64,000 nucleotides of DNA from an uncultured Dehalococcoidia bacterium. GTDB taxonomy: Bacteria; Chloroflexota; Dehalococcoidia; Lucifugimonadales; UBA1123. Numbering within the stretch: the first letter of the stretch is position 1; each line of letters begins with the position of its first letter. Positions 3,607-62,120 of the stretch are shown one piece after another. The stretch lies in NCBI GenBank assembly GCA_958296105.1, contig OY282441.1, forward strand, positions 124,001-188,000. The letters are read 5' to 3'. The position numbers and the translations under genes are program-made. The notes beneath the pieces were generated by a model. The model worked only from the letters and a program-made list of their open reading frames with translations. It ran no database searches and had not been told where the DNA came from.

Positions 3607-4077
3607 ATGACCCAGAGACAGAGATTCCTAACACCCGAAGGACACGCCCAGCTTCAGGCAGAGCTGACCGAGCTGAAGACCGTCCGCCGCCCTGACGTCT
3701 CCTCCCGCATCCACATCGCAGCCGCGAGCGGAGGCGCAGTCGACAACGCCGAGTACGAGGAAGTCAAGAACGAACAAGCATTCGTAGAGGGCAGAATCAG
3801 GGACATCGAGGAGATACTGTCCAACACCGTCGTAGCGCGCAGAAACCCTGACGTCCAGGACAAGGTCCAGTTCGGCTCCTCCGTAACCGTCAGAGCGCAG
3901 GACGGCAAGAGCCGCCACTACGTACTGGTCGGCAGCGCAGAAGCCAGACCCCTCGAAGGCAGGATATCCAACGAGTCGCCGGTCGGACAGGCGCTCCTCG
4001 ACAGGAGGGTAGGGGACGTCGTCGAAGTCTCCACCCCAGCCGGCATCCAGAAGCTCGTCATCGACCGCGTCCAATAG
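3607..4077 (+). CDS. greA: Transcription elongation factor GreA/GreB
   Basis: A 156-residue protein with the two expected parts. The first is an N-terminal coiled coil of about 75 residues (LTPEGHAQLQAELTELK onward) whose tip has acidic residues in DNAEYEEVKNEQ. The second is a C-terminal FKBP-like domain (VQFGSSVTVRAQDG to the end) containing ISNESPVGQALLDRRVGD, the hallmark of the family. It rescues backtracked RNA polymerase by stimulating transcript cleavage. It lies 62 bases upstream of lysS on the same strand. A TATACT hexamer at 3588-3593 would give a very short leader, but I see no matching -35 box. Confidence 0.93.
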   Translation: MTQRQRFLTPEGHAQLQAELTELKTVRRPDVSSRIHIAAASGGAVDNAEYEEVKNEQAFVEGRIRDIEEILSNTVVARRNPDVQDKVQFGSSVTVRAQDGKSRHYVLVGSAEARPLEGRISNESPVGQALLDRRVGDVVEVSTPAGIQKLVIDRVQ

Positions 4078-4139
4078 CCGCCCCCAAGCCCGCCACTGTT
4101 CCAGCCGTCTATATCTATTAATAAGGAGCGCGACCCCAA

Positions 4140-5621
4140 ATGACCATGCCGTCCGACGAGCTGTTCCTCGTTCGCCTGCGAAAGACCGAAAATCTGCGCA
4201 GCAGGGGCATAGACCCCTACCCCCGCAGCTACCACCGCACCCACACCGCTACGGAGGCGGTCGAGCAGTTCGAGCTGGCTGAGGTGTCCGGCGAGGGCGA
4301 AGCCGAGACCGACGAAGTCTCCATCGGAGGCCGCATCATCGGAATGAGAGGCATGGGACGGGTGACGTTCTGCGACATCCTCGACGGCTCTGGCAAGGTC
4401 CAAGCCATGTTCAGAAGCAACGCGCTGGGAGACGCATACGAAACCCTGAAAGACCTCGACCTAGGCGACTGGATCGGCGTATCCGGCGCCATGACGCGCA
4501 CGCGCAGGGGTGAGGTTACGATTCAGGCAAGCAGCCTAGCCGTCCTGTGCAAGTCGCTGCGCCCCCTGCCCGAAAAGTGGCACGGCCTCACCGATACCGA
4601 AGCGCGCTACCGACAGCGATACCTAGACCTCATCGCCAACCCCGAAGCTCGGCGCGTCGCCACCATCCGAAGCCGCATGGTCAGCGCCATCCGCCGCTTC
4701 ATGGACAGGCGCGGATTCATGGAGGTAGAAACCCCCATGCTGGTCCCAGTCCCCGCAGGCGGAATGGCGCACCCGTTCGAAACCCGACACAACGCCCTGA
4801 GCCGAGATCTGTTCCTCAGAATCGCAACCGAGCTTCACCTAAAGCGCCTCATAGTCGGCGGCATCGAGAAGGTCTACGAGATCGGAAGGATATTCCGCAA
4901 CGAGGGCATAGACGCCTCCCACAACCCCGAATTCACCACTATGGAGTCATACGAGGCGTTCGCAGACTACAACGACGTCATGCGCTTGGTCGAAGACCTC
5001 GTCAGCACAGTCGCCACCGAAGTCACCGGAAGCCCCATAGTAGAGTATGGAGACCAGCAGATAAACTTCTCCCCCACTTGGCCGCGCCTGAGCCTCGTGG
5101 ATCAGGTACAGAAGCACAGCGGCATCTCCCTGACTGAGAGCCAAACCATAGACAGCCTCAAGGCGAAGATGCGAAGCGCCGGCATAGACACCGCCAATCA
5201 GGTGAGCTGGGCAGGACTCGTAGACAAGCTCATCTCCACTGCGGTCGAGCCTCGCATCGTCCAGCCCACCTTTCTAGTAGACTACCCCGTTCAGGTATCC
5301 CCACTGGCGAAGCGCACCGCCCACGACCCGCGCCTAGTCGAGCGTTTCGAAGCATTCGCCGCAGGAATGGAGATCGCCAACGCCTTCACCGAGCTCAACG
5401 ACCCCGTAGACCAGCGCGCCAGATTCGAGGAGCAGGAACAGCTGCGCGCAGACCTCCCCCAAGAGGAATGGGACAGGCTGGACGAAGACTTCCTAATCGC
5501 CATCGAACACGGAATGCCCCCCACCGGCGGACTCGGCATGGGCATGGACCGCCTCGCCATGCTCCTGTCTGGCCAGCGCACCATTCGAGAAGTCGTCCTC
5601 TTCCCCCAGATGCGAAGTTAG
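4140..5621 (+). CDS. lysS: Lysyl-tRNA synthetase, class II
   Basis: A 493-residue class II synthetase that charges tRNA-Lys. An N-terminal OB-fold anticodon-binding domain (about residues 60-155, with VSIGGRIIGMRGMGRVTFC) is followed by the catalytic domain. Class II motif 1 is seen in YRQRYLDL and FMEVETPML, motif 2 in EIGRIFRNEGIDASHNPEFT, and motif 3 in GLGMGMDRLAMLL near the C-terminus. An AAGGAG sequence lies about 11 bases before the ATG at 4140. The gene sits between greA and gltX, all on the + strand. Length is normal for bacterial LysS. Confidence 0.96.
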   Translation: MTMPSDELFLVRLRKTENLRSRGIDPYPRSYHRTHTATEAVEQFELAEVSGEGEAETDEVSIGGRIIGMRGMGRVTFCDILDGSGKVQAMFRSNALGDAYETLKDLDLGDWIGVSGAMTRTRRGEVTIQASSLAVLCKSLRPLPEKWHGLTDTEARYRQRYLDLIANPEARRVATIRSRMVSAIRRFMDRRGFMEVETPMLVPVPAGGMAHPFETRHNALSRDLFLRIATELHLKRLIVGGIEKVYEIGRIFRNEGIDASHNPEFTTMESYEAFADYNDVMRLVEDLVSTVATEVTGSPIVEYGDQQINFSPTWPRLSLVDQVQKHSGISLTESQTIDSLKAKMRSAGIDTANQVSWAGLVDKLISTAVEPRIVQPTFLVDYPVQVSPLAKRTAHDPRLVERFEAFAAGMEIANAFTELNDPVDQRARFEEQEQLRADLPQEEWDRLDEDFLIAIEHGMPPTGGLGMGMDRLAMLLSGQRTIREVVLFPQMRS

Positions 5622-34568: not shown

Positions 34569-34866
34569 TGCGAGAGTTCTCCCCCCTCATCAATAGAGGC
34601 CTGTCCCTCCCCCCCTCCCAGAGGGGGACACAGGGGGGAGAGAAACCCCCAAGTTGCGAAAGTTCTCCCCCATCAATAGAGGCCTGTCCCTCCCCCCCCT
34701 CATCAATAGAGGCCTATCCCTCCCCCCCTCTCAGAGGGGGGGACGCAGGGGGGGAGACCCCCCAAGTTGCGAAAGTTCTCCCCCATCAATAGAGGCCTGT
34801 CCCTCCCCCCCCCTCAGAGATAGAGGCCTATCCCTCCCCCCCTCCCAGAGGGGGGGAGAGAACCCC
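34569..34866. repeat. Clustered C-rich/G-rich repeats between rpsB and galE
   Basis: The unit ATAGAGGCCTRTCCCTCC occurs five times (about 34593, 34676, 34706, 34789, 34821). It is interleaved with palindromic CCCTCCCAGAGGGGG sequences and with a recurring CCCCCAAGTTGCGAAAGTTC. The block contains several long runs of C on + and G on -. No gene is supported in 34324-34867. Confidence 0.85.
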
Positions 34867-50150: not shown

Positions 50151-52463
50151 ATGACGACCCAGACCTACGAACCCAACTTGGTGCTGTCCAGCCGAGAGTA
50201 CGACACCATAGGCACCCGCCCCATTCGGCACGACGGACTGGACAAGGTGACGGGCAGGGCGCGGTACAGCGCGGACGTCCACCTGCCCGGGATGCTCCAT
50301 GGCAAGCTGCTTCGCAGCCCCCACGCGCACGCCAGGATCCTGTCCATAGACTGCGCCCGCGCCCTCGATCTGCCCGGCGTCAGGGCGGTCGTCACCGCCG
50401 CCGACATGCCCGAAGTCTCGGCCGAGTTCACCGACCAAGCCGAAGGCGCGATGGTCAACTACGGCTTCTACAGCCGCAACGTCATCGCGCGCGAAAAGGC
50501 GCTCTACAGGGGACACGTCATCGCCGCCGTCGCCGCCACCGACCCCGCCGCGGCAGAGCAGGCGCTCGACCTGATCGAAGTCGAATACGAAGTCCTGCCC
50601 CCGGTCCTCACCGCCGAGGACGCCCTCGCCGAAGACGCCCCCATTCTCCATGAGCGTCTGCTGACCATGCACAGCCCCACCCTGAGAGCCGGCGCGTGGG
50701 GCGACGGCGAGGAGCGTACCAACTTGGCAAACAGGTTCGAGTTCCGACTCGGAGACGTCGAAGCCGCCTTCGAAGAGGCGGACGTGATCATAGAGCGCGA
50801 GTTTCGCACTCGGCCAGTCCATCAGGGATACATCGAGCCGCACGCCGCCACCGCGCACTGGGCAAGCGATGGCTACATAACCGTCTGGTGCAGCAGCCAG
50901 GGCCACTTCGCCGTCCGCGACCACACCTCCAGCATACTCGGAATTCCCGTCTCCAGAGTGAAAGTCATCCCAATGGAGATCGGCGGCGGCTTCGGAGGGA
51001 AAGGGCAGGGCGGACTGTACCTCGAGCCGCTCGCCGCCAAGCTCTCCCAGAAATCCGGCCGCCCCGTCAAGATCGTCATGAGCAGGGAGGAGGTCTTCAT
51101 CGGCACCGGCCCAACCTCCGCCGCCCACATGACCGTGAAGATAGGCGCGACCGATCGCGGACGCATCACCGCCGCCGAAGCCCACCTGACATACGAAGCC
51201 GGCGCGTTCCCCGGCTCCCCCGTCGCCTCCGGGTGCAGAACCATGTTCGCCCCATACGACATCCCCAACGCCCTCGTGGAGGGCGTGGATGTTCTCGTGA
51301 ACAAGCAGAAGGCGGCGGCCTACCGCGCACCCGGCTCCCCGGCCGCAGCCTTCGCCGCCGAGCAGGTCATAGACGAGCTGGCGAGACGGCTGGACATCGA
51401 CCCCATCGAGCTGCGCCTCTTGAACACGTCCAGAGAGGGCAGCAGACAGGTAGCCGGCCCACGCTTCCAGCGCATAGGCAACCAGGAGATACTCGAAGCC
51501 GCAAGAGAGCATCCCCATCTACAGACCCCAGTGGAAGGCAGGTTGCGCGGACGCGGCGTCGCAGGCGGAGCGTGGTTCAACGGCAGCGGCCCCGCCAGCG
51601 CAGTAGCCTCGATCAACCCGGATGGCACCGTCAGCCTGATAGAGGGATCCCCAGACATTGGCGGCAGCCGCGCCGCCATGGCCATGCACGTGGCGGAAGT
51701 ACTCGGCATCTCCGTAGAGGACGTCAAGCCCGCCATAGCCGATACGGACTCCATCGGATACAGCTCTGGCGCTGGCGGAAGCGGCGTCACCTTCAAGATG
51801 GGACGCGCCTGTTACGAGGCGGCACATGACGCCCGCCGCCAGCTGATCGAGCGCGCCGCGCGCATCTGGGACATCTCCCCCGAAGACATCGAGTTCGAGG
51901 ACGCCACCCTGCGCCACCGACAGGACACCGAGCTGACCATGACCTTCGGCGAGCTTGCCGCCCAGCTCAACGGCACGGGCGGCCCCATCGTCGGACGCGC
52001 CACCGTCAACCCCGGCGGAGTCGGCAGCGCCTTCGCCCTGCACGTGGTGGACGTAGAGGTAGACGCTGAAACCGGCAAAGTCGAGATACTGCGCTACACC
52101 GCCTTGCAGGACGCCGGCAAAGCCATCCACCCCAGCTACGTAGAGGGCCAGATACAGGGCGGAGCGGTGCAGGGGATAGGCTGGGCGCTCAACGAGGAGT
52201 ACTACTTCGGAGACGATGGCGCCATGCACAACTCCACCTTCTTGGATTACCGTATGCCCACCAGCTTGGACCTGCCCATGATAGACACCGTAATAGTGGA
52301 GGTAGCCAACCCCGGCCACCCCTACGGCGTGCGCGGAGTCGGCGAGGTGTCTATCGTCCCCCCCATGGCCGCCGTCGCCAACGCCATCCACGACGCCACC
52401 GGAGTTCGCCTAACCCAGCTCCCCATGTCCCCTGGAGCAGTAGCAAGCGCCCTGCACCAATAG
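50151..52463 (+). CDS. Xanthine dehydrogenase family molybdopterin-binding subunit
   Basis: A 770-residue large subunit of a molybdenum hydroxylase. RHDGLDKVTGRARYSADVHL and RSPHAHARILSIDCARA are the N-terminal domain, MEIGGGFGGKGQGGLYLEP the first cofactor loop, and AAAYRAPGSPAAAFAAEQ the second. The catalytic Glu is expected in GVRGVGEVSIVPPMAAVA near the C-terminus. GGAGG precedes the ATG. The partner FAD and 2Fe-2S subunits are not adjacent: the gene is flanked by a hydrolase and by repeats. Possible substrates include purines, aldehydes, nicotinate-like rings or CO, and none can be chosen. Confidence 0.92.
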   Translation: MTTQTYEPNLVLSSREYDTIGTRPIRHDGLDKVTGRARYSADVHLPGMLHGKLLRSPHAHARILSIDCARALDLPGVRAVVTAADMPEVSAEFTDQAEGAMVNYGFYSRNVIAREKALYRGHVIAAVAATDPAAAEQALDLIEVEYEVLPPVLTAEDALAEDAPILHERLLTMHSPTLRAGAWGDGEERTNLANRFEFRLGDVEAAFEEADVIIEREFRTRPVHQGYIEPHAATAHWASDGYITVWCSSQGHFAVRDHTSSILGIPVSRVKVIPMEIGGGFGGKGQGGLYLEPLAAKLSQKSGRPVKIVMSREEVFIGTGPTSAAHMTVKIGATDRGRITAAEAHLTYEAGAFPGSPVASGCRTMFAPYDIPNALVEGVDVLVNKQKAAAYRAPGSPAAAFAAEQVIDELARRLDIDPIELRLLNTSREGSRQVAGPRFQRIGNQEILEAAREHPHLQTPVEGRLRGRGVAGGAWFNGSGPASAVASINPDGTVSLIEGSPDIGGSRAAMAMHVAEVLGISVEDVKPAIADTDSIGYSSGAGGSGVTFKMGRACYEAAHDARRQLIERAARIWDISPEDIEFEDATLRHRQDTELTMTFGELAAQLNGTGGPIVGRATVNPGGVGSAFALHVVDVEVDAETGKVEILRYTALQDAGKAIHPSYVEGQIQGGAVQGIGWALNEEYYFGDDGAMHNSTFLDYRMPTSLDLPMIDTVIVEVANPGHPYGVRGVGEVSIVPPMAAVANAIHDATGVRLTQLPMSPGAVASALHQ

Positions 52464-52483: not shown

Positions 52484-52650
52484 GCACAGAACCCCCTCTC
52501 CCCAAGATGGGAGAGGGCCAGGGTAGGGAAGCCCCCTCTCCCCGACGGGAGATGGCGAAGCCCCGCCCCAACTTGGTCAGCAGTACAGAAGCCCCCTCCC
52601 TCGAAGGAAGAGGGCTAGGGTGAGGGTGACGTCCCCCTCCCCACAAAATT
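52484..52650. repeat. Three copies of the dispersed palindromic repeat, and the left boundary of the ankyrin island
   Basis: CCCTCTCCCCAAGATGGGAGAGGG, CCCTCTCCCCGACGGGAGATGG (given here as short arms) and CCCTCCCTCGAAGGAAGAGGG occur in a row at about 52494, 52533 and 52594, each followed by AGGG-type tails. Between the second and third lies CTTGGTCAGCAGTAC (52572-52586), the left copy of the 26-bp sequence that recurs at 57050-57075 on the far side of the ankyrin genes. Confidence 0.8.
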
Positions 52651-52732: not shown

Positions 52733-52798
52733 ATGCCATTTCTTGGACTTCAAGAAGCGCGGGTTGGAGAACATAAAGTCCAGGGAGGTCAGAGATGA
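52733..52798 (+). CDS. Possible 21-codon upstream frame overlapping the first ankyrin gene
   Basis: An ATG at 52733 with GGGAG upstream opens a 21-residue frame (MPFLGLQEARVGEHKVQGGQ plus R) whose TGA overlaps the ankyrin start codon as ATGA. This would couple translation. It may be chance: the peptide has no recognised motif. Confidence 0.25.
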   Translation: MPFLGLQEARVGEHKVQGGQR

Positions 52799-53991
52799 AT
52801 GAATTCGGTATCGGTATGACGCCACTCCATCATGCAGCAGAGGAGGGCGATATCCGAACCGTGCGTACCCTTATCGCCAAGCGCGCCAACCTCGAAGCAC
52901 GGGACGAGAGTGGCTGCACACCCCTGCACTTGGCGGCTAACGCGGAAGTCGCGCAGGCGCTCATCACCGCAGGCGCCAACGTCAAAGCACGGGCCGAGTA
53001 TGGCTACACCTACACCCCCCTGCACTTGGCGGCGTATATGGGCCGTACTGAAGTCGCGCAGACGCTCATCACCGCAGGCGCCAACGTCGAAGCACGGGCC
53101 GATGACGGCGAAACACCCCTGTACTTGCCGGCGTATATGGGCCGTACTGATATCGCCAAGCACGCCAACGTCGAAGCATGGGCCGAGGATGGCGAAACAC
53201 CCCTGCACTTGGCGGCGTATATGGGCCATACTGAAATTGTTCAGACGCTCATCAATGCAGGCGCCAACGTCGAAGCACGGGCCGAGGATGGCGAAACACC
53301 CCTGCACTTGGCGGCACGTCGGGGATATACTCAAATCGCGCAGACACTCATCGAAGCAGGCGCCAACGTCGAAGCACGGGACGAGGATGGCGAAACACCC
53401 CTGCACCGGGTGGATAATGCGGAAATCGCGCAGACACTCATCGAAGCAGGCGCCAACCTCGAAGCACGGGCCGAGGATGATTGCACACCCCTGCACTCGG
53501 CGTTTTTTATGAACAATGCGGAAGTCGTGCAGACGCTCATCAGCGCAGGCGCCAACCTCGAAGCACGGGACAATCGTGGGCGTACACCCCTGCACTTGGC
53601 GGCTACTAATATTATGAACAATGCGGAAGTCGTGCAGACGCTCATCAGCGCAGGCGCCAACCTCGAAGCACGGGACAATCGTGAGCGTACACCTCTGCAC
53701 ACGGCGGCTTTTTGGGGCTATACTGAAATCGCGCAGACGCTCGTCACCGCACGCGCCAACCTTGAAGTACGGGACGGGAATGGACGTACACCCCTGCACT
53801 TGGCGGCACGTTGGGGCTATACTGAAATCGCGCAGACGCTCATCACCGCAGGCGCCAACATCGAAGCACGGGCCGAGGATGGGGAAACACCTCTAGCCTA
53901 CGCAAGAAAGCGGGGCAATCGGCAAGTAACCGCAGTGCTCTTAACCGCCGGTGCAGGCTCTCGTCAGCGCTGGTGGCAGCGTTACCTGTGA
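52795..53991 (+). CDS. Ankyrin repeat protein, about 11-12 repeats
   Basis: A 398-residue protein built almost wholly of about 33-residue ankyrin repeats with the TPLHLAA and GANVEARAEDGE consensus. No signal peptide or membrane segment is visible. GGGAGG lies 7 bases before the ATG. The first repeat (MTPLHHAAEEGDIRTVRTLI) is the head shared with the next genes. The last is a capping repeat (ETPLAYARKRGNRQVTAVLL) with the tail GAGSRQRWWQRYL. Repeats are nearly identical at DNA level (about 99 bases). Ankyrin proteins mediate protein binding, and in symbionts they are often host-directed; that role is inference here. Confidence 0.9.
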   Translation: MNEFGIGMTPLHHAAEEGDIRTVRTLIAKRANLEARDESGCTPLHLAANAEVAQALITAGANVKARAEYGYTYTPLHLAAYMGRTEVAQTLITAGANVEARADDGETPLYLPAYMGRTDIAKHANVEAWAEDGETPLHLAAYMGHTEIVQTLINAGANVEARAEDGETPLHLAARRGYTQIAQTLIEAGANVEARDEDGETPLHRVDNAEIAQTLIEAGANLEARAEDDCTPLHSAFFMNNAEVVQTLISAGANLEARDNRGRTPLHLAATNIMNNAEVVQTLISAGANLEARDNRERTPLHTAAFWGYTEIAQTLVTARANLEVRDGNGRTPLHLAARWGYTEIAQTLITAGANIEARAEDGETPLAYARKRGNRQVTAVLLTAGAGSRQRWWQRYL

Positions 53992-54002
53992 GGGAGAATG
54001 GC

Positions 54003-54383
54003 ATGACACCCCTACACCAGTCGGCGCTTGTGGGAGACATCCAAACCGTGCGTACCCTTATCGCCAAGCGCGCCAACCTCGAAGCACGGGCCGAGATTGG
54101 CCGCACACCCCTGCACTCGGCGGCTAATGCGGAAGTCGCACAGGCGATCATCGAAGCAGGCGTCGACGTCGAAGCACAGGACGGGAATGGACGTACACCC
54201 CTGCACAGCGCGGCTAATGCGGAAGTCGCGCAGGCACTCATCAACGCACGCGCCAACCTCGAAGCACGGGACGAGAATGGGGATACACCTCTAGACTACG
54301 CAAGAAAGGAGGGCAATCGGCAAATAACCGTAGTGCTCTCAACCGCCCGTGCAGGCTCTCGTCAACGCTGGTTGACAACATGA
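54003..54383 (+). CDS. Small ankyrin repeat protein (head and tail nearly adjacent)
   Basis: A 126-residue protein starting 11 bases after the previous stop, with GAGGGAG between, so translation is likely coupled. It keeps the head (MTPLHQSALVGDIQTVRTLI), two short internal repeats missing part of the consensus (SAANAEVAQAIIEAGVDV) and the capping tail (DTPLDYARKEGNRQITVV) ending RQRWLTT. The stop differs from that of the first gene because of a one-base change in the tail. Confidence 0.85.
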   Translation: MTPLHQSALVGDIQTVRTLIAKRANLEARAEIGRTPLHSAANAEVAQAIIEAGVDVEAQDGNGRTPLHSAANAEVAQALINARANLEARDENGDTPLDYARKEGNRQITVVLSTARAGSRQRWLTT

Positions 54384-54389
54384 GCGTAT

Positions 54390-54744
54390 ATGGGCAATAC
54401 CGAAGTCGCGCAGGCACTCATAGACGCACGCGCCAACCTCGAAGCACGGGACGAGTATGGGGGTGCACCTCTGCACGAGGTGGATAATGCGGAAGTCGCG
54501 CAGACGCTCATCAACGCACGCGCCAACCCTTGAAGCACGGGACAAGTATGGGCGTACACCCCTGCATCGGGCAGCGTATATGGGCCATACTGAAGTCGTT
54601 CAGGCACTCATCGAAGCAGGCGCCAACCTCGAAGCCCAGGACTGGAATGGGGATACACCCCTAGACTACGCAAGAAAGAAGGGCAATCGGCAAATAACCG
54701 CAGCTCTCTTGACCGCAGCAGCGCGGGACAGTAGCTCAGACTGA
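54390..54744 (+). pseudogene. Headless, frameshifted ankyrin fragment
   Basis: From an ATG at 54390 the sequence reads MGNTEVAQALIDARANLEAR, a mid-repeat entry point without the usual head. After 47 codons an extra C in GCCAACCCTTGAAG (others have GCCAACCTCGAAG) makes a TGA at 54531. Ankyrin homology continues in the +1 frame (LEARDKYGRTPLHRAAYMGH) to the capping repeat DTPLDYARKKGNRQITAALL and a stop at 54744, with the RQRWWQRYL tail lost. Confidence 0.85.
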
Positions 54745-54785
54745 AGTCGCGCAGGCACTCATCAACACCTGTGAGGGAGAATGGC

Positions 54786-56942
54786 ATGACACCCCTACAC
54801 CAGTCGGCGCTTGAGGGCGATATCCAAACCGTGCGTACCCTTATCGCCAAGCGCGCCAACGTCGACGCGCCGAACAATTATGGGAGTACACCTCTGCACT
54901 TGGCGGCTAACGCGGAAGTCGCGCAGGCGCTCATCAGCGCAGGCGCCAACCTCGAAGCACTGGACGAGGTTGGCTGCACCCCCCTGCACTTGGCGGCTAA
55001 TGCGGAAGTCGCGCAGGCGCTCATCAGCGCAGGCGCCAACCTCGAAGCGCTGGACGCGAATGGCTACACCCCCCTGTGCTTGGCGGCTAATGCGGAAGTC
55101 GCGCAGACACTCATCACCGCAGGCGCCAACTTCGAAGCGCGGAACAAGAAGGATGATCGCACGCCCCTGCACGCGGCGGCGTTTAGGGGCCGTGCGGAAG
55201 TCGCGCAGGCGCTCATCGAAGCAGGCGCCGACGTCGACGCGCTGGACGCTGATGGCTACACCCCCCTGCACAGGGCGGCTAATGCGGAAGTCGTGCAGGC
55301 GCTCGTCACCGCAGGCGCCGATGTCGACGCGCGGAACGCGAATAGCTACACCCCCCTGGGCTGGGCGGCGTTTATGGACAATACTGAAGTCGCGGATGCA
55401 CTCGTCAGCGCAGGCGCCAACCTCGAAGCACGGAACAAGAAGGATGATCGCACACCCCTGCACACGGAGATATTTCGGGGAAATACCGAAATTGTGCAGT
55501 CGCTCATCAGCGCAGGCGCCAACGTCGAAGCGCTGGATGCGGATGGGCGTACACCCCTGCACCGGGCGGCGTATATGGATCATACTGAAATCTCGCAGTC
55601 GCTCATCAGCGCAGGCGCCAACGTCGAAGCGCTGGATGCGGATGGGCGTACACCCCTGCACTCGGCGACATTTCGGGGAAATACCGAAATTGTGCAGTCG
55701 CTCATCAGTGCAGGCGCCAACGTCGAAGCGCGGAACGAGTATGAGCGCACACCCCTGCACTTGGCTAATGCGGAAATCGCGCAGACGCTCATCGAAGCAG
55801 GCGCCAACGTCGAAGCGCTGGATGCGGATGGGCGTACACACCTGTACTCGGCGGCGTCTATGGGCATACTGAAAATTGTCCAGACGCTCATCAGCGCAGG
55901 CGCCAACCTCGAAGCGCTGGACGCGGATGGGCGTACACCCCTGCACTCGGCGGCGTCTATGGGTCATACTGAAATTGTTCAGACGCTCATCAGCGCAGGC
56001 GCCAACGTCGAGGCGCTGGACGCGGATAGACGTACACCCCTGCACTCGGCGGCGTCTATGGGCCGTACTGAAGTTGTGCAGTCGCTCATCACCGCAGGCG
56101 CCAACCTCGAAGCGCGGGACAAGTACGAGCGTACCCCCCTGCACCGGGCGGACCTGCACCCGTCGGAGCTGCGCCCGCTGGCGTTTATTGACCGTAGTGA
56201 AGTTGTTCAAACGCTCATCGAAGCAGGCGCCAACGTCGAAGCGCGGGACGAGGATGGTGACACCCCCCTGCACTTGGCGGCGTCTATGGGCAATACTGAA
56301 GTTGTGCAGACGCTAATCGAAGCAGGCGCCAACCTCCAAGCGCGGGACAAGTATGGACGTACACCCCTTCACCGGGCGGACCTGGACCAGGTGGCTATGC
56401 ACTCGTGTTTCCTCCCGGACTGGGAGGAGGTTGCGGACCGTACTAAAACTGTTCAGACGCTAATCGAAGCAGGCGCCAACCTCCAAGCGCGGGACGAGAA
56501 TGGGGATACACCTCTAGACTACGCAAGAAAGAAGGGCAATCAGCAAGTAATCGCAGCGCTCTCAACCGATCGTGCAGTCTCTCGTCAGCGCTGGTTGACA
56601 ACGTTACCCGTGAGGGAGAATGGTATGACACCCCTGCACCAGTCGGCGCTTGGGGGAGATGTTGAAATCGCGCAGGAGTTCATCAACGCAGGCGCCGATG
56701 TCGACGCGCGGAACGAGGTTGGCGAAACACCCCTGCACTTGGCGGCGTCTGAGGGCCATGCGGAAGTCGCGCAGGCGCTCATCAACGCACGCGCCAACCT
56801 CGACGCACGGGACGAGAATGGCAAAACACCCCTAGACTACGCAAGAGAGAATGGCAATGGGCAAATAACCGCAGCGCTCTTGACCGCCGGTGCAGGCTCT
56901 CGTCAGCGTTGGTGGCAACGCTGGTGGCAACGTTACCTGTGA
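54786..56942 (+). CDS. Large ankyrin repeat protein, a fusion of two cassettes
   Basis: A 718-residue protein of about 20 ankyrin repeats. GAGGGAG precedes the ATG. Repeats include irregular ones with insertions (TPLHRADLHPSELRPLAFID and TPLHRADLDQVAMHSCFLPD). Near residue 605 a complete tail (DTPLDYARKKGNQQVIAALS, then RQRWLTT) runs in frame through LPVRENG into a second head, MTPLHQSALGGDVEIAQEF, beginning at Met614 (base 56625) with its own GAGGGAG. The chain ends with another tail, GAGSRQRWWQRWWQRYL. No signal peptide. Confidence 0.9.
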   Translation: MTPLHQSALEGDIQTVRTLIAKRANVDAPNNYGSTPLHLAANAEVAQALISAGANLEALDEVGCTPLHLAANAEVAQALISAGANLEALDANGYTPLCLAANAEVAQTLITAGANFEARNKKDDRTPLHAAAFRGRAEVAQALIEAGADVDALDADGYTPLHRAANAEVVQALVTAGADVDARNANSYTPLGWAAFMDNTEVADALVSAGANLEARNKKDDRTPLHTEIFRGNTEIVQSLISAGANVEALDADGRTPLHRAAYMDHTEISQSLISAGANVEALDADGRTPLHSATFRGNTEIVQSLISAGANVEARNEYERTPLHLANAEIAQTLIEAGANVEALDADGRTHLYSAASMGILKIVQTLISAGANLEALDADGRTPLHSAASMGHTEIVQTLISAGANVEALDADRRTPLHSAASMGRTEVVQSLITAGANLEARDKYERTPLHRADLHPSELRPLAFIDRSEVVQTLIEAGANVEARDEDGDTPLHLAASMGNTEVVQTLIEAGANLQARDKYGRTPLHRADLDQVAMHSCFLPDWEEVADRTKTVQTLIEAGANLQARDENGDTPLDYARKKGNQQVIAALSTDRAVSRQRWLTTLPVRENGMTPLHQSALGGDVEIAQEFINAGADVDARNEVGETPLHLAASEGHAEVAQALINARANLDARDENGKTPLDYARENGNGQITAALLTAGAGSRQRWWQRWWQRYL

Positions 56943-56953
56943 GGTAGAATGGC

Positions 56954-57045
56954 ATGACACGCTTACACCAGTCGGCGCTTGGGGGAGACATCCAAACCGT
57001 GCGTACCCTTATCGCCAAGCGCGCCAACCTCGAAGCAATGTTGCC
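56954..57045 (+). pseudogene. Ankyrin head without a body
   Basis: Eleven bases after the stop of the large ankyrin gene, an ATG opens MTRLHQSALGGDIQTVRTLI and continues to AKRANLEA, then leaves the ankyrin consensus exactly before the right copy of the 26-bp boundary repeat (57050-57075). The open frame goes on into the antisense of the PIG-L gene and is not a real continuation. Confidence 0.8.
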
Positions 57046-57081
57046 CATCTTGGTCAGCAGTACCGAAGCCCCCTTGAGCCC

Positions 57082-57804
57082 CTACCGCCTGAACGATATC
57101 TTCTTGAAAGACTCCGAATACAGCATCCCCGTTCCCACCGACCCGCGCCGCCGCCACTCCTGCATTCGAGGCAGCAGATCCTCCCAGCTCCGTCCCCCCG
57201 TCTGCGTAGTATGCTCCGCCAGCGCCTTGACCGCCGTCTCCATGTGATCCGTCACGTCCACGAACACGTCCGGCTCCGGGTGTCCCATTATCCACACCTC
57301 CGCCACCTTGTGCGGCTCGAACCCGTCCTTCATCAGATCCGGAAAAGTCATGTGGTCCCGCGCCGTTGGGAACACCGCCGCCAGCGCAGCCTCGCCCGCC
57401 GCCATGTGATCCGGATGCCCAACGCCCCATCCGCCGTCCAGAACCCGCATCGGATACTGGCAGATCACCACGTCCGGCCTGTACCTGCGGATCTCGCGCG
57501 CTATGTCCTTTCGCAGCCCCAGCGTGGGCTCCAGATAGCTGTCCGCATAGCCCAGAAACGCCACGTCCTTCAGCCCCAGCGCCTCGCCCGCGCTGATCTG
57601 CTCACGCCGCCGCGTCTCCGACAGCTCCGCCTCGCTGATCTCCCGGTCCGAACTGCCCTTGCTGCCGTCCGTACAAAGAACGTAGGTCATCTCCCAGCCC
57701 TCCGCGCACAGCTTGGCAACCGTGCCGGAGCAGCCGTACTCCGCATCGTCCGCGTGAGCTATGACCACCATCCCGCGAGAGTATCCGTTATCCGCAGTGG
57801 ACAT
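57082..57804 (-). CDS. PIG-L family deacetylase
   Basis: A 240-residue zinc-dependent LmbE-type deacetylase. The metal motif is VVIAHADDAEYGCSG (H-x-D-D) near residue 14, the third ligand lies in GWGVGHPDHMAAGEAALAAV. GEALGLKDVAFLGYADSYL is typical of the BshB/MshB-like group. TAGGAG lies before the ATG. Family members deacetylate GlcNAc-malate, GlcNAc-inositol or other N-acetyl sugars; no bacillithiol or mycothiol genes are adjacent. Its 3' end borders the ankyrin island. Confidence 0.9.
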   Translation of the reverse strand: MSTADNGYSRGMVVIAHADDAEYGCSGTVAKLCAEGWEMTYVLCTDGSKGSSDREISEAELSETRRREQISAGEALGLKDVAFLGYADSYLEPTLGLRKDIAREIRRYRPDVVICQYPMRVLDGGWGVGHPDHMAAGEAALAAVFPTARDHMTFPDLMKDGFEPHKVAEVWIMGHPEPDVFVDVTDHMETAVKALAEHTTQTGGRSWEDLLPRMQEWRRRGSVGTGMLYSESFKKISFRR

Positions 57805-57864: not shown

Positions 57865-58581
57865 TCATTCCGGCTCCAGCGTACTTATCGGTATCCGATA
57901 CCAGGAAGCCTCCTCGTTGTCGAAGACCCTCTGAACCTCTTCGGACAGCAGCACACTCGCCACCGCCGCCAACGCCCGCTCCCCCGTAAATCTGGTCAGG
58001 AACTCTGCATTGCGGATTGCCCTGTCGGAGTCGCGCCTGTGCGCCGTGAAGGAAATTTCGAGCGCGACCCAGATGCTCCTCCCCTCTTGGTCCGTGGCTT
58101 CGATCACCGCGTCCGCGCGCATGAAACTGTCCAAATCCCCCCGGTCGATGCCGGAGACGTCCCCGTCCCGCACCATGTCTATGAGGTCGACCCGACTCAG
58201 AAGCCGCCTGTACCTGTACCCCATTTCGTAGATGATGAGCGGAGCCTCTTCCAGCGCGGTCGTGGCTGCCATCCAGCCGTTCAGCCTGCCGACTTGGGTG
58301 CGCAGGTCCACGAACTGCCTGTCAACGTCCTCGAAGCGCCGGCTGGTGGTCTCGATGAACCTTTCCAGAGTGGCTTCCAGAGCTGCCAGCCGTCGCTCGA
58401 CCGCCTCGAACCGTCGGTCTATCGCCTCGAACCGCCTCTCAGTGGCGGCTTCGAACTCCGCCAGCCGTTCCGGAAGCTCCATCAGCTCGCGCGTCAGCAG
58501 GCGCGCGCGCAGCTCATCGAGCATCGAAGGCTCTGCGTCTATAGCGGCTATTATGTCCTGTATGGTGATAGCAGTCGCCAT
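57865..58581 (-). CDS. Coiled-coil protein with a nuclease-like C-terminal domain (DUF3782-like)
   Basis: A 238-residue protein; the ATG at 58581 has GGAGGA upstream. Residues about 30-100 form a heptad-patterned coiled coil (ERRFEAIDRRFEAVERRLAA). The C-terminal half has an Asp in SFMRADAVIEATDQEG and a Glu in IWVALEISFTAHRRDSDRAI, the layout of PD-(D/E)xK-like folds, but the last residue of the motif is Ser and not Lys. Such proteins are common and often multicopy in some bacteria and have no established function. It sits between the PIG-L gene and nuoN. Confidence 0.7.
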   Translation of the reverse strand: MATAITIQDIIAAIDAEPSMLDELRARLLTRELMELPERLAEFEAATERRFEAIDRRFEAVERRLAALEATLERFIETTSRRFEDVDRQFVDLRTQVGRLNGWMAATTALEEAPLIIYEMGYRYRRLLSRVDLIDMVRDGDVSGIDRGDLDSFMRADAVIEATDQEGRSIWVALEISFTAHRRDSDRAIRNAEFLTRFTGERALAAVASVLLSEEVQRVFDNEEASWYRIPISTLEPE

Positions 58582-58624
58582 ATGTTTCCTCCGCCCCAAT
58601 TATACAGCGTGGGACGGCGCGATT

Positions 58625-61641: not shown

Positions 61642-61672
61642 ATCAGATGCGGAAAGCGTCCAAACACCCTAT

Positions 61673-62120
61673 CGCAGACAACGACTACCCCCGTTCGATC
61701 CAGTCATTCCCGCCCCGCCATTCCCGCGCAGGCGCGAACCCAGACATTATCGCAGACAACGGCTACCCTGTTCGATCCAGTCATTCCCGCCCCGCCACTC
61801 CCGCGCAGACGAGAACCCAGACATTATCGCAGACAACGGCTGTCCTCGTTCGATCCAGTCGTTCCCGCCCCGCCATTCCCGCGCAGACGAGAACCCAGAC
61901 ATTATCGCAGACAACGGCTACCCCCGTTCGATCCAGTCATTCCCGCCCCGCCATTCCCGCGCAGACGAGAACCCAGACATTATCGCAGACAACGGCTACC
62001 CCGGTTCGATCCAGTCATTCCCGCGCAGGCGAGAACCCAGACATTATCGCAGACAACGGCTGTCCTCGTTCGATCCAGTCGTTCCCGCGCAGGCGAGAAC
62101 CCAGACGTTGGCATGTAACG
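61673..62120. repeat. 78-bp tandem repeat array (six units, one shortened)
   Basis: CGCAGACAACGG-type cores recur at 61673, 61751, 61828, 61906, 61984 and 62048, so units are 77-78 bases except one of 64 that lacks a 14-base CCCGCCCCGCCATT segment. Each unit contains TTCGATCCAGTCRTTCCCGC and CATTCCCGCGCAGRCGAGAA. The latter belongs to the widespread class of inverted intergenic repeats seen in many bacteria. There are no unique spacers, so this is not a CRISPR array. No gene is supported in 61642-62134. Confidence 0.93.

Follow-up and report, generated by a model that had tools for sequence, protein, structure and literature searches.

At positions 52795 to 57045 of the window (the whole stretch of 64,000 nucleotides that was analysed), the first and last repeats of ankyrin (ANK) proteins recur several times. 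A preliminary description read these as the heads and tails of shuffled cassettes that might constantly produce new ankyrin proteins. Does the locus call for such a mechanism? In our view the array very probably consists of lineage-specific tandem ANK genes that were inserted between two convergent housekeeping genes and evolve by ordinary birth and death. It displays, in one sequence, how an ANK family grows and decays through copied seams, partial duplications and in-frame fusions, and its main use is that it accounts for "cassettes" by known processes.

Heads, tails and reading frames

Five heads begin at 52795/52819, 54003, 54786, 56625 and 56954. Five tails (TPLAYAR or TPLDYAR) start at 53887, 54285, 54655, 56508 and 56826 and end near 53991, 54383, 54744, 56600 and 56942, as the preliminary description had placed them. 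Heads and tails correspond to the N- and C-capping repeats of ANK proteins, and they recur along the array through head-to-tail duplication of the gene. Some 6 nt 5' of the ATG at 52795, 54003, 54786 and 56625 there is a Shine-Dalgarno-like GAGGGAG or GGGAGG. This motif had been ascribed to all five heads, which does not hold at 56954, where the sequence is GAGGTAG.

Three plausible ORFs (398, 126 and 718 aa) are present, all on the forward strand. ANK gene 1 (52795..53991, 398 aa) comprises the first head (H1), ten body repeats and a tail (T1) ending in RQRWWQRYL. ANK gene 2 (54003..54383, 126 aa; Pfam Ank, E 9.9e-23) has H2, two body repeats and T2. It is followed on the same strand by a headless fragment with T3 (54384..54744), whose in-frame stop at 54531-54533 follows a C run that differs in length by one base and whose last 69 aa match Pfam Ank_4 (E 1.4e-16). 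ANK gene 3 (54786..56942, 718 aa, or 723 aa when read from 54771) is the last two copies fused, with H3, body, T4, H4, body and T5 in one frame. H4 is joined in frame to T4 because a 1-nt length difference shifts the stop out of frame. The truncated head H5 (56954..57037, forward strand), with its altered Shine-Dalgarno sequence, is joined to unrelated flank. The tail without a head and the last head without a body are thus both real.

Pfam matches to the Ank clan were far above cut-off for ORF 1 (Ank_2, 317.7 bits against a cut-off of 27.3, E 1.4e-96) and ORF 3 (Ank, 470.5 bits against 21.1, E 2.5e-147). AF2 modeled gene 1 as an ANK solenoid with a mean pLDDT of 90.4, and Foldseek matched that model to AnkB R13-24 (TM 0.86, rmsd 2.5). 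The AF2 model of the fused ORF fell below a pLDDT of 50 at residues 594-611, which is the T4/H4 seam. No promoter above background was found at the array. PADLOC matches to PDC-M72A, Ankyrin and MzaA overlap the ANK repeats; we judged them generic and rejected them as a defence assignment. Matches to Wolbachia phage WO and Leptospira phages were likewise generic, involving ANK genes that are 30-36% identical.

Copied seams, partial copies and diverged repeats

Near-copies of one seam occur at four heads, each with a tail end, a stop overlapping the next Shine-Dalgarno sequence and the start MTPLHQSAL. The first (53984..54086, forward strand) joins the end of T1, a TGA overlapping GAGGGAG, and H2; a 47-nt exact match links positions 53984 and 54767. 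Related to it are the seams at 54767-54869 (84%), 56602-56708 (69%) and 56934-57037 (95%). The H2 and H5 seams are 95% identical over 122 nt, after which the likeness ends. Sequence upstream of H1 and downstream of H5 is unrelated to the internal seams, so that the internal junctions are alike and the outer ends unique, as expected of tandem duplication.

The headless fragment represents a second copy, 78% identical, of a segment of about 0.7 kb that starts in the body of gene 1. BLAST aligned 53613-54280 with 54389-55063 at 79%. The heads themselves are mosaic: the first 45 nt of H1 are only 57-71% like the other heads, its next 39 nt match H2 and H5 exactly, and H4 resembles the body repeats in its second half. 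These mosaics show exchange beyond simple duplication. Broken copies, the mark of birth and death, are present as a frameshifted fragment, a truncated head and fused copies, and the breakpoints of the partial copies fall at different places. Head, body and tail units and recombination among them were therefore described correctly, and it is the cassette mechanism that is not supported.

The repeats had been described as near-identical and 99 bases long. We found spacings from 84 to 147 nt and pairwise DNA identities with a median of 0.76, a 95th percentile of 0.85 and a maximum of 0.93; most pairs are 20-25% diverged. The longest exact repeat in the array is 72 bp, and recent exact duplications measure 72 and 67 bp. 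A repeat's nearest neighbour lay in the same gene at a frequency of 0.65 versus 0.36 by chance (P 0.0045), with some nearest neighbours in other genes, and identity dropped with distance (rho -0.21). Both patterns are what local tandem duplication predicts. However, pS is low and the third positions of framework codons hardly vary, so some homogenisation is ongoing or recent; like the mosaic heads, this counts against the explanation we favour.

Under that explanation, one ANK gene would have been duplicated head to tail, and its seam of tail, stop, Shine-Dalgarno sequence and head copied along with it. Body length could then have been altered by unequal exchange, probably through general recombination, among homologous repeats that had diverged. 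The same process may have produced the partial duplication seen as the headless fragment, the in-frame fusion of two copies and the truncation of the last copy. The intact ORFs may be translated as an operon, given that the stop of one overlaps the ribosome-binding site of the next. Their ANK solenoids presumably bind partner proteins, whether of a host, of a competitor or of the cell itself.

Genomic setting and a second locus

The array lies between two convergent genes, each with orthologs in all seven family members. Upstream is a xanthine-dehydrogenase/CO-dehydrogenase-type large subunit (50151..52463, forward strand, 770 aa; orthologs 71-85% identical), and downstream is a PIG-L-type deacetylase (57082..57804, reverse strand, 240 aa; orthologs 75-85%). 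These two genes adjoin without the array in five of the seven (G001, G004, G005, G006 and G007). DNA searches of 40 relatives and then of 250 genomes of the order found no ortholog of the array. A search of genome contigs with the 718/723-aa protein returned one distant ANK gene, from a Sedimentisphaerales MAG, which did not help with synteny.

A 31-bp direct repeat flanks the array on the forward strand, and its left copy (52567..52597, CCCAACTTGGTCAGCAGTACAGAAGCCCCCT) is 94% identical to the right copy (57044..57074). In the whole genome the 21-nt core of the repeat has exact copies at these two sites alone, and one further site matches it with two mismatches. A REP-like flank pattern, GAAGCCCCCTCNCCC...GGGAGAGGG, had no match in the genome, so membership of a dispersed repeat family is not supported for the flanks. 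The direct repeat may be an insertion scar or may have survived by chance.

Duplication and decay as in the main array are also seen at a second ANK locus, at 1.656-1.662 Mb of the same genome. Two adjacent ANK genes there share a tail and the following non-coding DNA, and one copy is stopped and frameshifted. Elsewhere in the order, ANK loci (L049-L054) contained no clear tandem head/tail arrays of this kind and showed internal repeat amplification in single genes, such as a 1218-aa gene of genome G080.

Contact positions, rival readings and known systems

At the canonical ANK contact positions, which are those randomised in DARPins, pN/pS was 1.86 (bootstrap 1.45-2.25; P 0.0003 versus random positions), a value drawn from non-independent repeats of one genome. 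Among closely related pairs it was 2.57 at the second locus and 1.86 in a gene of G080. The repeats thus change fastest where they would touch a binding partner, which is consistent with diversifying selection. This excess is the sole mildly unusual feature of the array. If it were confirmed between strains, it would suggest that bacterial ANK binders are under diversifying selection for their targets.

One could go further and see here an actively diversifying recognition locus, in which homologous recombination keeps reshuffling contact residues between repeats and the resulting variants are retained by selection, as in the repeats of fungal NLRs. The mosaic heads and the recent exact duplications fit this reading, as does the excess of pN over pS. 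However, the array includes two broken units among its five, the codon test takes non-independent repeats as its units, and comparable patterns have been reported as a general property of protein repeats (PMC5120217). The fungal repeats with high internal conservation (HIC), such as the WD repeats of Podospora hnwd and the ANK repeats of Pa_3_8560 (PMC2873952, PMC4986451), do share with the array homogenisation, changes in repeat number and an excess of change on the concave surface used for binding. But they are C-terminal domains of NOD receptors whose instability was shown experimentally, and HIC is defined by more than 85% identity over at least 100 aa (PMC4986451). The array encodes stand-alone ANK proteins, and most of its repeat pairs fall below that identity at the DNA level. 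We therefore consider continual diversification unlikely. It is equally doubtful that the locus parallels, in a prokaryote, the diversification of fungal NLR repeats, as a bacterial tandem array of stand-alone binders whose recombining repeats diversify contact residues and whose stop/Shine-Dalgarno seams let new genes arise by unequal crossing-over.

A collapsed or chimeric assembly, offered earlier as a possible refutation, is very improbable. Repeats do complicate assembly, and a sequencing error could underlie the single frameshift, in the C run at 54527-54533, but the whole genome is one 3.18-Mb contig, exact repeats of at most 72 bp can be spanned even by short reads, and the second locus has the same anatomy independently.

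The head and tail units are reusable and partial copies occur, which might also suggest a programmed cassette system, whether integron-like, DGR-like or of the silent-donor kind known from antigenic variation, that has recombination machinery of its own. This is scarcely credible given that no site-specific breakpoint was seen, that several units have their own Shine-Dalgarno sequence and start, against a single expression site, and that the genome has just two tyrosine recombinases, neither of them within 200 kb of the array (nearest match about 215 kb). A diversity-generating retroelement was rejected for lack of any RVT_1 (reverse transcriptase) match genome-wide. Integron gene cassettes were rejected for lack of suitable inverted repeats and of a linked IntI tyrosine recombinase; a search for attC-like sites and RNA elements in the array gave no Rfam match and one weak inverted repeat only. 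With diverged repeats, broken units and none of this machinery, the proposal that the locus constantly produces new proteins is unsupported.

Related bacterial ANK proteins have been described. Sponge-associated Chloroflexi symbionts also carry stand-alone, eukaryotic-like ANK proteins, for which host contact has been proposed; the parts of that paper drawn on here give no description of the tandem seam anatomy found in the array (PMC6306507). Closer is Wolbachia WD0766, a single gene with length alleles and documented strain variation, whereas the array, known here from one genome, has tandem gene copies, a copied stop/Shine-Dalgarno seam, fusions and broken units. In WD0766 orthologs the first and last ANK repeats are conserved; between them, one or several repeats at a time are tandemly duplicated or lost, and now and then repeats change order, so that size differs between strains (PMC3287509). 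A variable body enclosed by constant outer repeats is thus already described, although the preliminary description knew of no system with such cassette logic.

Anatomy of the array and its copied seams

The source genome is one contig of 3.18 Mb (the window is G000:C1:124001-188000). An ankyrin (ANK) coding run of 4.2 kb has a xanthine-dehydrogenase-type (XDH-type) gene on its left (50151-52463, +) and a gene for a PIG-L-type deacetylase on its right (57082-57804, -). Its reading frames resolve into gene 1 (52795-53991, 398 aa) and gene 2 (54003-54383, 126 aa), then a headless fragment (54384-54744) interrupted by a stop at 54531-54533. After these come a fused gene (54786-56942, 718 aa), inside which lie tail T4 and head H4, and a truncated last head, H5 (56954-57037). 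Pfam confirmed ANK repeats in genes 1 and 2, the headless fragment and the fused gene. The five first repeats (heads, H1-H5) and five capping last repeats (tails, T1-T5) were all present where the preliminary description had placed them.

The DNA running from tail end through stop and Shine-Dalgarno (SD) sequence into the next first repeat, here called a seam, is copied between units. The seams at 53984 and 54767 have 47 identical bases in common, those of H2 and H5 are 95% alike across 122 nt, and the DNA upstream of H1 and downstream of H5 is unrelated to the seams. Copied seams with unrelated outer ends are the signature of whole-gene head-to-tail duplication, which, on this sequence evidence, is how the heads and tails came to recur. 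Since the TGA of unit 1 (53989-53991) overlaps GAGGGAG, the array genes are probably translationally coupled.

A second tandem ANK locus (L017, G000:C1:1654500-1665000; ANK genes at 1.656-1.662 Mb) comprises a 1334-aa gene followed by one of 455 aa. The tail, together with about 100 bp of non-coding DNA after it, is common to both units (240 nt at 91%). The first, 1334-aa unit has a stop and a frameshift ahead of its tail. Because this locus repeats the anatomy of the array, tandem duplication and decay appear to be the ordinary way in which ANK genes grow in this genome. Six sampled ANK loci of other genomes of the order had internal repeat amplification, not clear gene arrays.

Origin of the shuffled appearance

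The units had been described as shuffled, and the tailed, headless fragment does exist. The fragment with T3, H3 and the next repeats aligns with a stretch made up of gene 1's end, T1, H2 and the repeats that follow H2 (78% over 694 alignment columns; 79% in a second comparison). A partial tandem duplication begun inside a gene body leaves a tail without a head, so one such event accounts for the fragment. Tails 2 and 4 have the RWLTT form in common, and at tail 4 a shifted frame reads through the seam, joining two units. H4 is head-like for about 45 nt and then body-like, and H1 equals H2 and H5 across 39 nt, its preceding part being only 57-71% like other heads; exchanges inside the first repeat have thus also taken place. 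Breakpoints differ from one case to the next, as general recombination would predict.

No sign of a dedicated recombination system emerged: a genome-wide search found no reverse transcriptase, the genome's two tyrosine recombinases are both far from the array, no Rfam element was found at the array, and its one inverted repeat is weak.

Constant reshuffling of whole cassettes through near-identical repeats, as first proposed, gains little support. Near-identity does not hold: DNA identity between pairs of the 31 repeats has a median of only 0.76 (95th percentile 0.85, maximum 0.93). No more than three exact repeats are 50 bp or longer, and the longest two (72 bp, 53507/53612, offset 105; 67 bp, 55496/55595, offset 99), each inside one gene, are recent within-gene duplications. 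For 65% of repeats the nearest neighbour belongs to the same gene, where chance would give 36% (P 0.0045); identity also drops as distance grows. This pattern fits local duplication with occasional between-gene exchange.

Nor is the arrangement without precedent, as had been thought, since Wolbachia WD0766 has a conserved first and last repeat and a variable middle (PMC3287509). Fixed end repeats around a variable middle are therefore already known; the locus here is a gene-level version, adding copied stop/SD seams, fusion and decay. We file the array as tandem ANK paralogs under birth-and-death evolution.

The flanking gap in relatives

The XDH-type and PIG-L-type genes are convergent neighbours without an ANK gene in five related genomes (G001, G004, G005, G006 and G007), 37 to about 1,170 bp apart, and are separated from each other in G002 and G003. 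No array ortholog turned up when 40 relatives, and 250 genomes of the order, were searched at the DNA level. ANK content is patchy: Ank_2 matches within the genus number 48, 12, 3 and 0, and across the order 19 of 39 genomes contain at least one. A 31-bp direct repeat, its core almost absent elsewhere in the genome, brackets the array. In G006 an IS630-like transposase occupies the gap (about 3840-4960 of locus L027), so the gap takes insertions in more than one species.

Between the PIG-L and NADH dehydrogenase (NuoN) genes sits a 244-aa ORF (57865-58599, -) with no Pfam match and a coiled-coil-like N-terminal half. PIG-L directly adjoins NuoN in G002, G003 and G004, which makes the ORF a further lineage-specific insertion beside PIG-L. 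Tandem repeats also occur at 61670-62106 (78-bp period, 4.6 copies, 93% match, its end adjoining nuo genes) and at 34581-34857 (113-bp, C-rich units).

Predicted structure and contact positions

The 398-aa protein is predicted to form a continuous ANK solenoid (mean pLDDT 90.4) ending in a long helix (376-397); the closest structures are ankyrin-B repeats 13-24 (TM 0.86) and DARPins. In the 718-aa fused protein, prediction confidence drops sharply across residues 594-611, where the internal tail meets the head; this suggests two solenoids joined by a linker.

For contact positions we took the five positions randomised in DARPins. In the array their pN was 0.458 against a pS of 0.246 over all sites (ratio 1.86, bootstrap 1.45-2.25), with a pN of 0.182 at non-contact positions; five random positions matched the contact value with P 0.0003. 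Among pairs at least 80% identical, the contact pN/pS was 1.84, with 2.57 at L017 and 1.86 for an unrelated ANK gene from G080, another genome of the order. Since repeats cannot be treated as independent and the test is complicated by homogenisation, this excess is consistent with diversifying selection and not proof of it. The pattern agrees with reports for protein repeats in general (PMC5120217) and for fungal NLR ANK repeats (PMC4986451).

Three ANK proteins end in short, basic, aromatic C-terminal tails: RQRWWQRYL (window 53988), GRGWLPSWFPRF (end of L017 gene B) and KGKRGIFGWL (position 4279 of L054, an ANK locus of another genome of the order). These could possibly be a shared targeting or membrane-contact motif. 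Elsewhere in the source genome (about 61.4-62.4 kb; L018 1423-2376), a 317-aa protein carries C-terminal ANK repeats behind an N-terminal half that we take to resemble a retropepsin-like aspartic protease.
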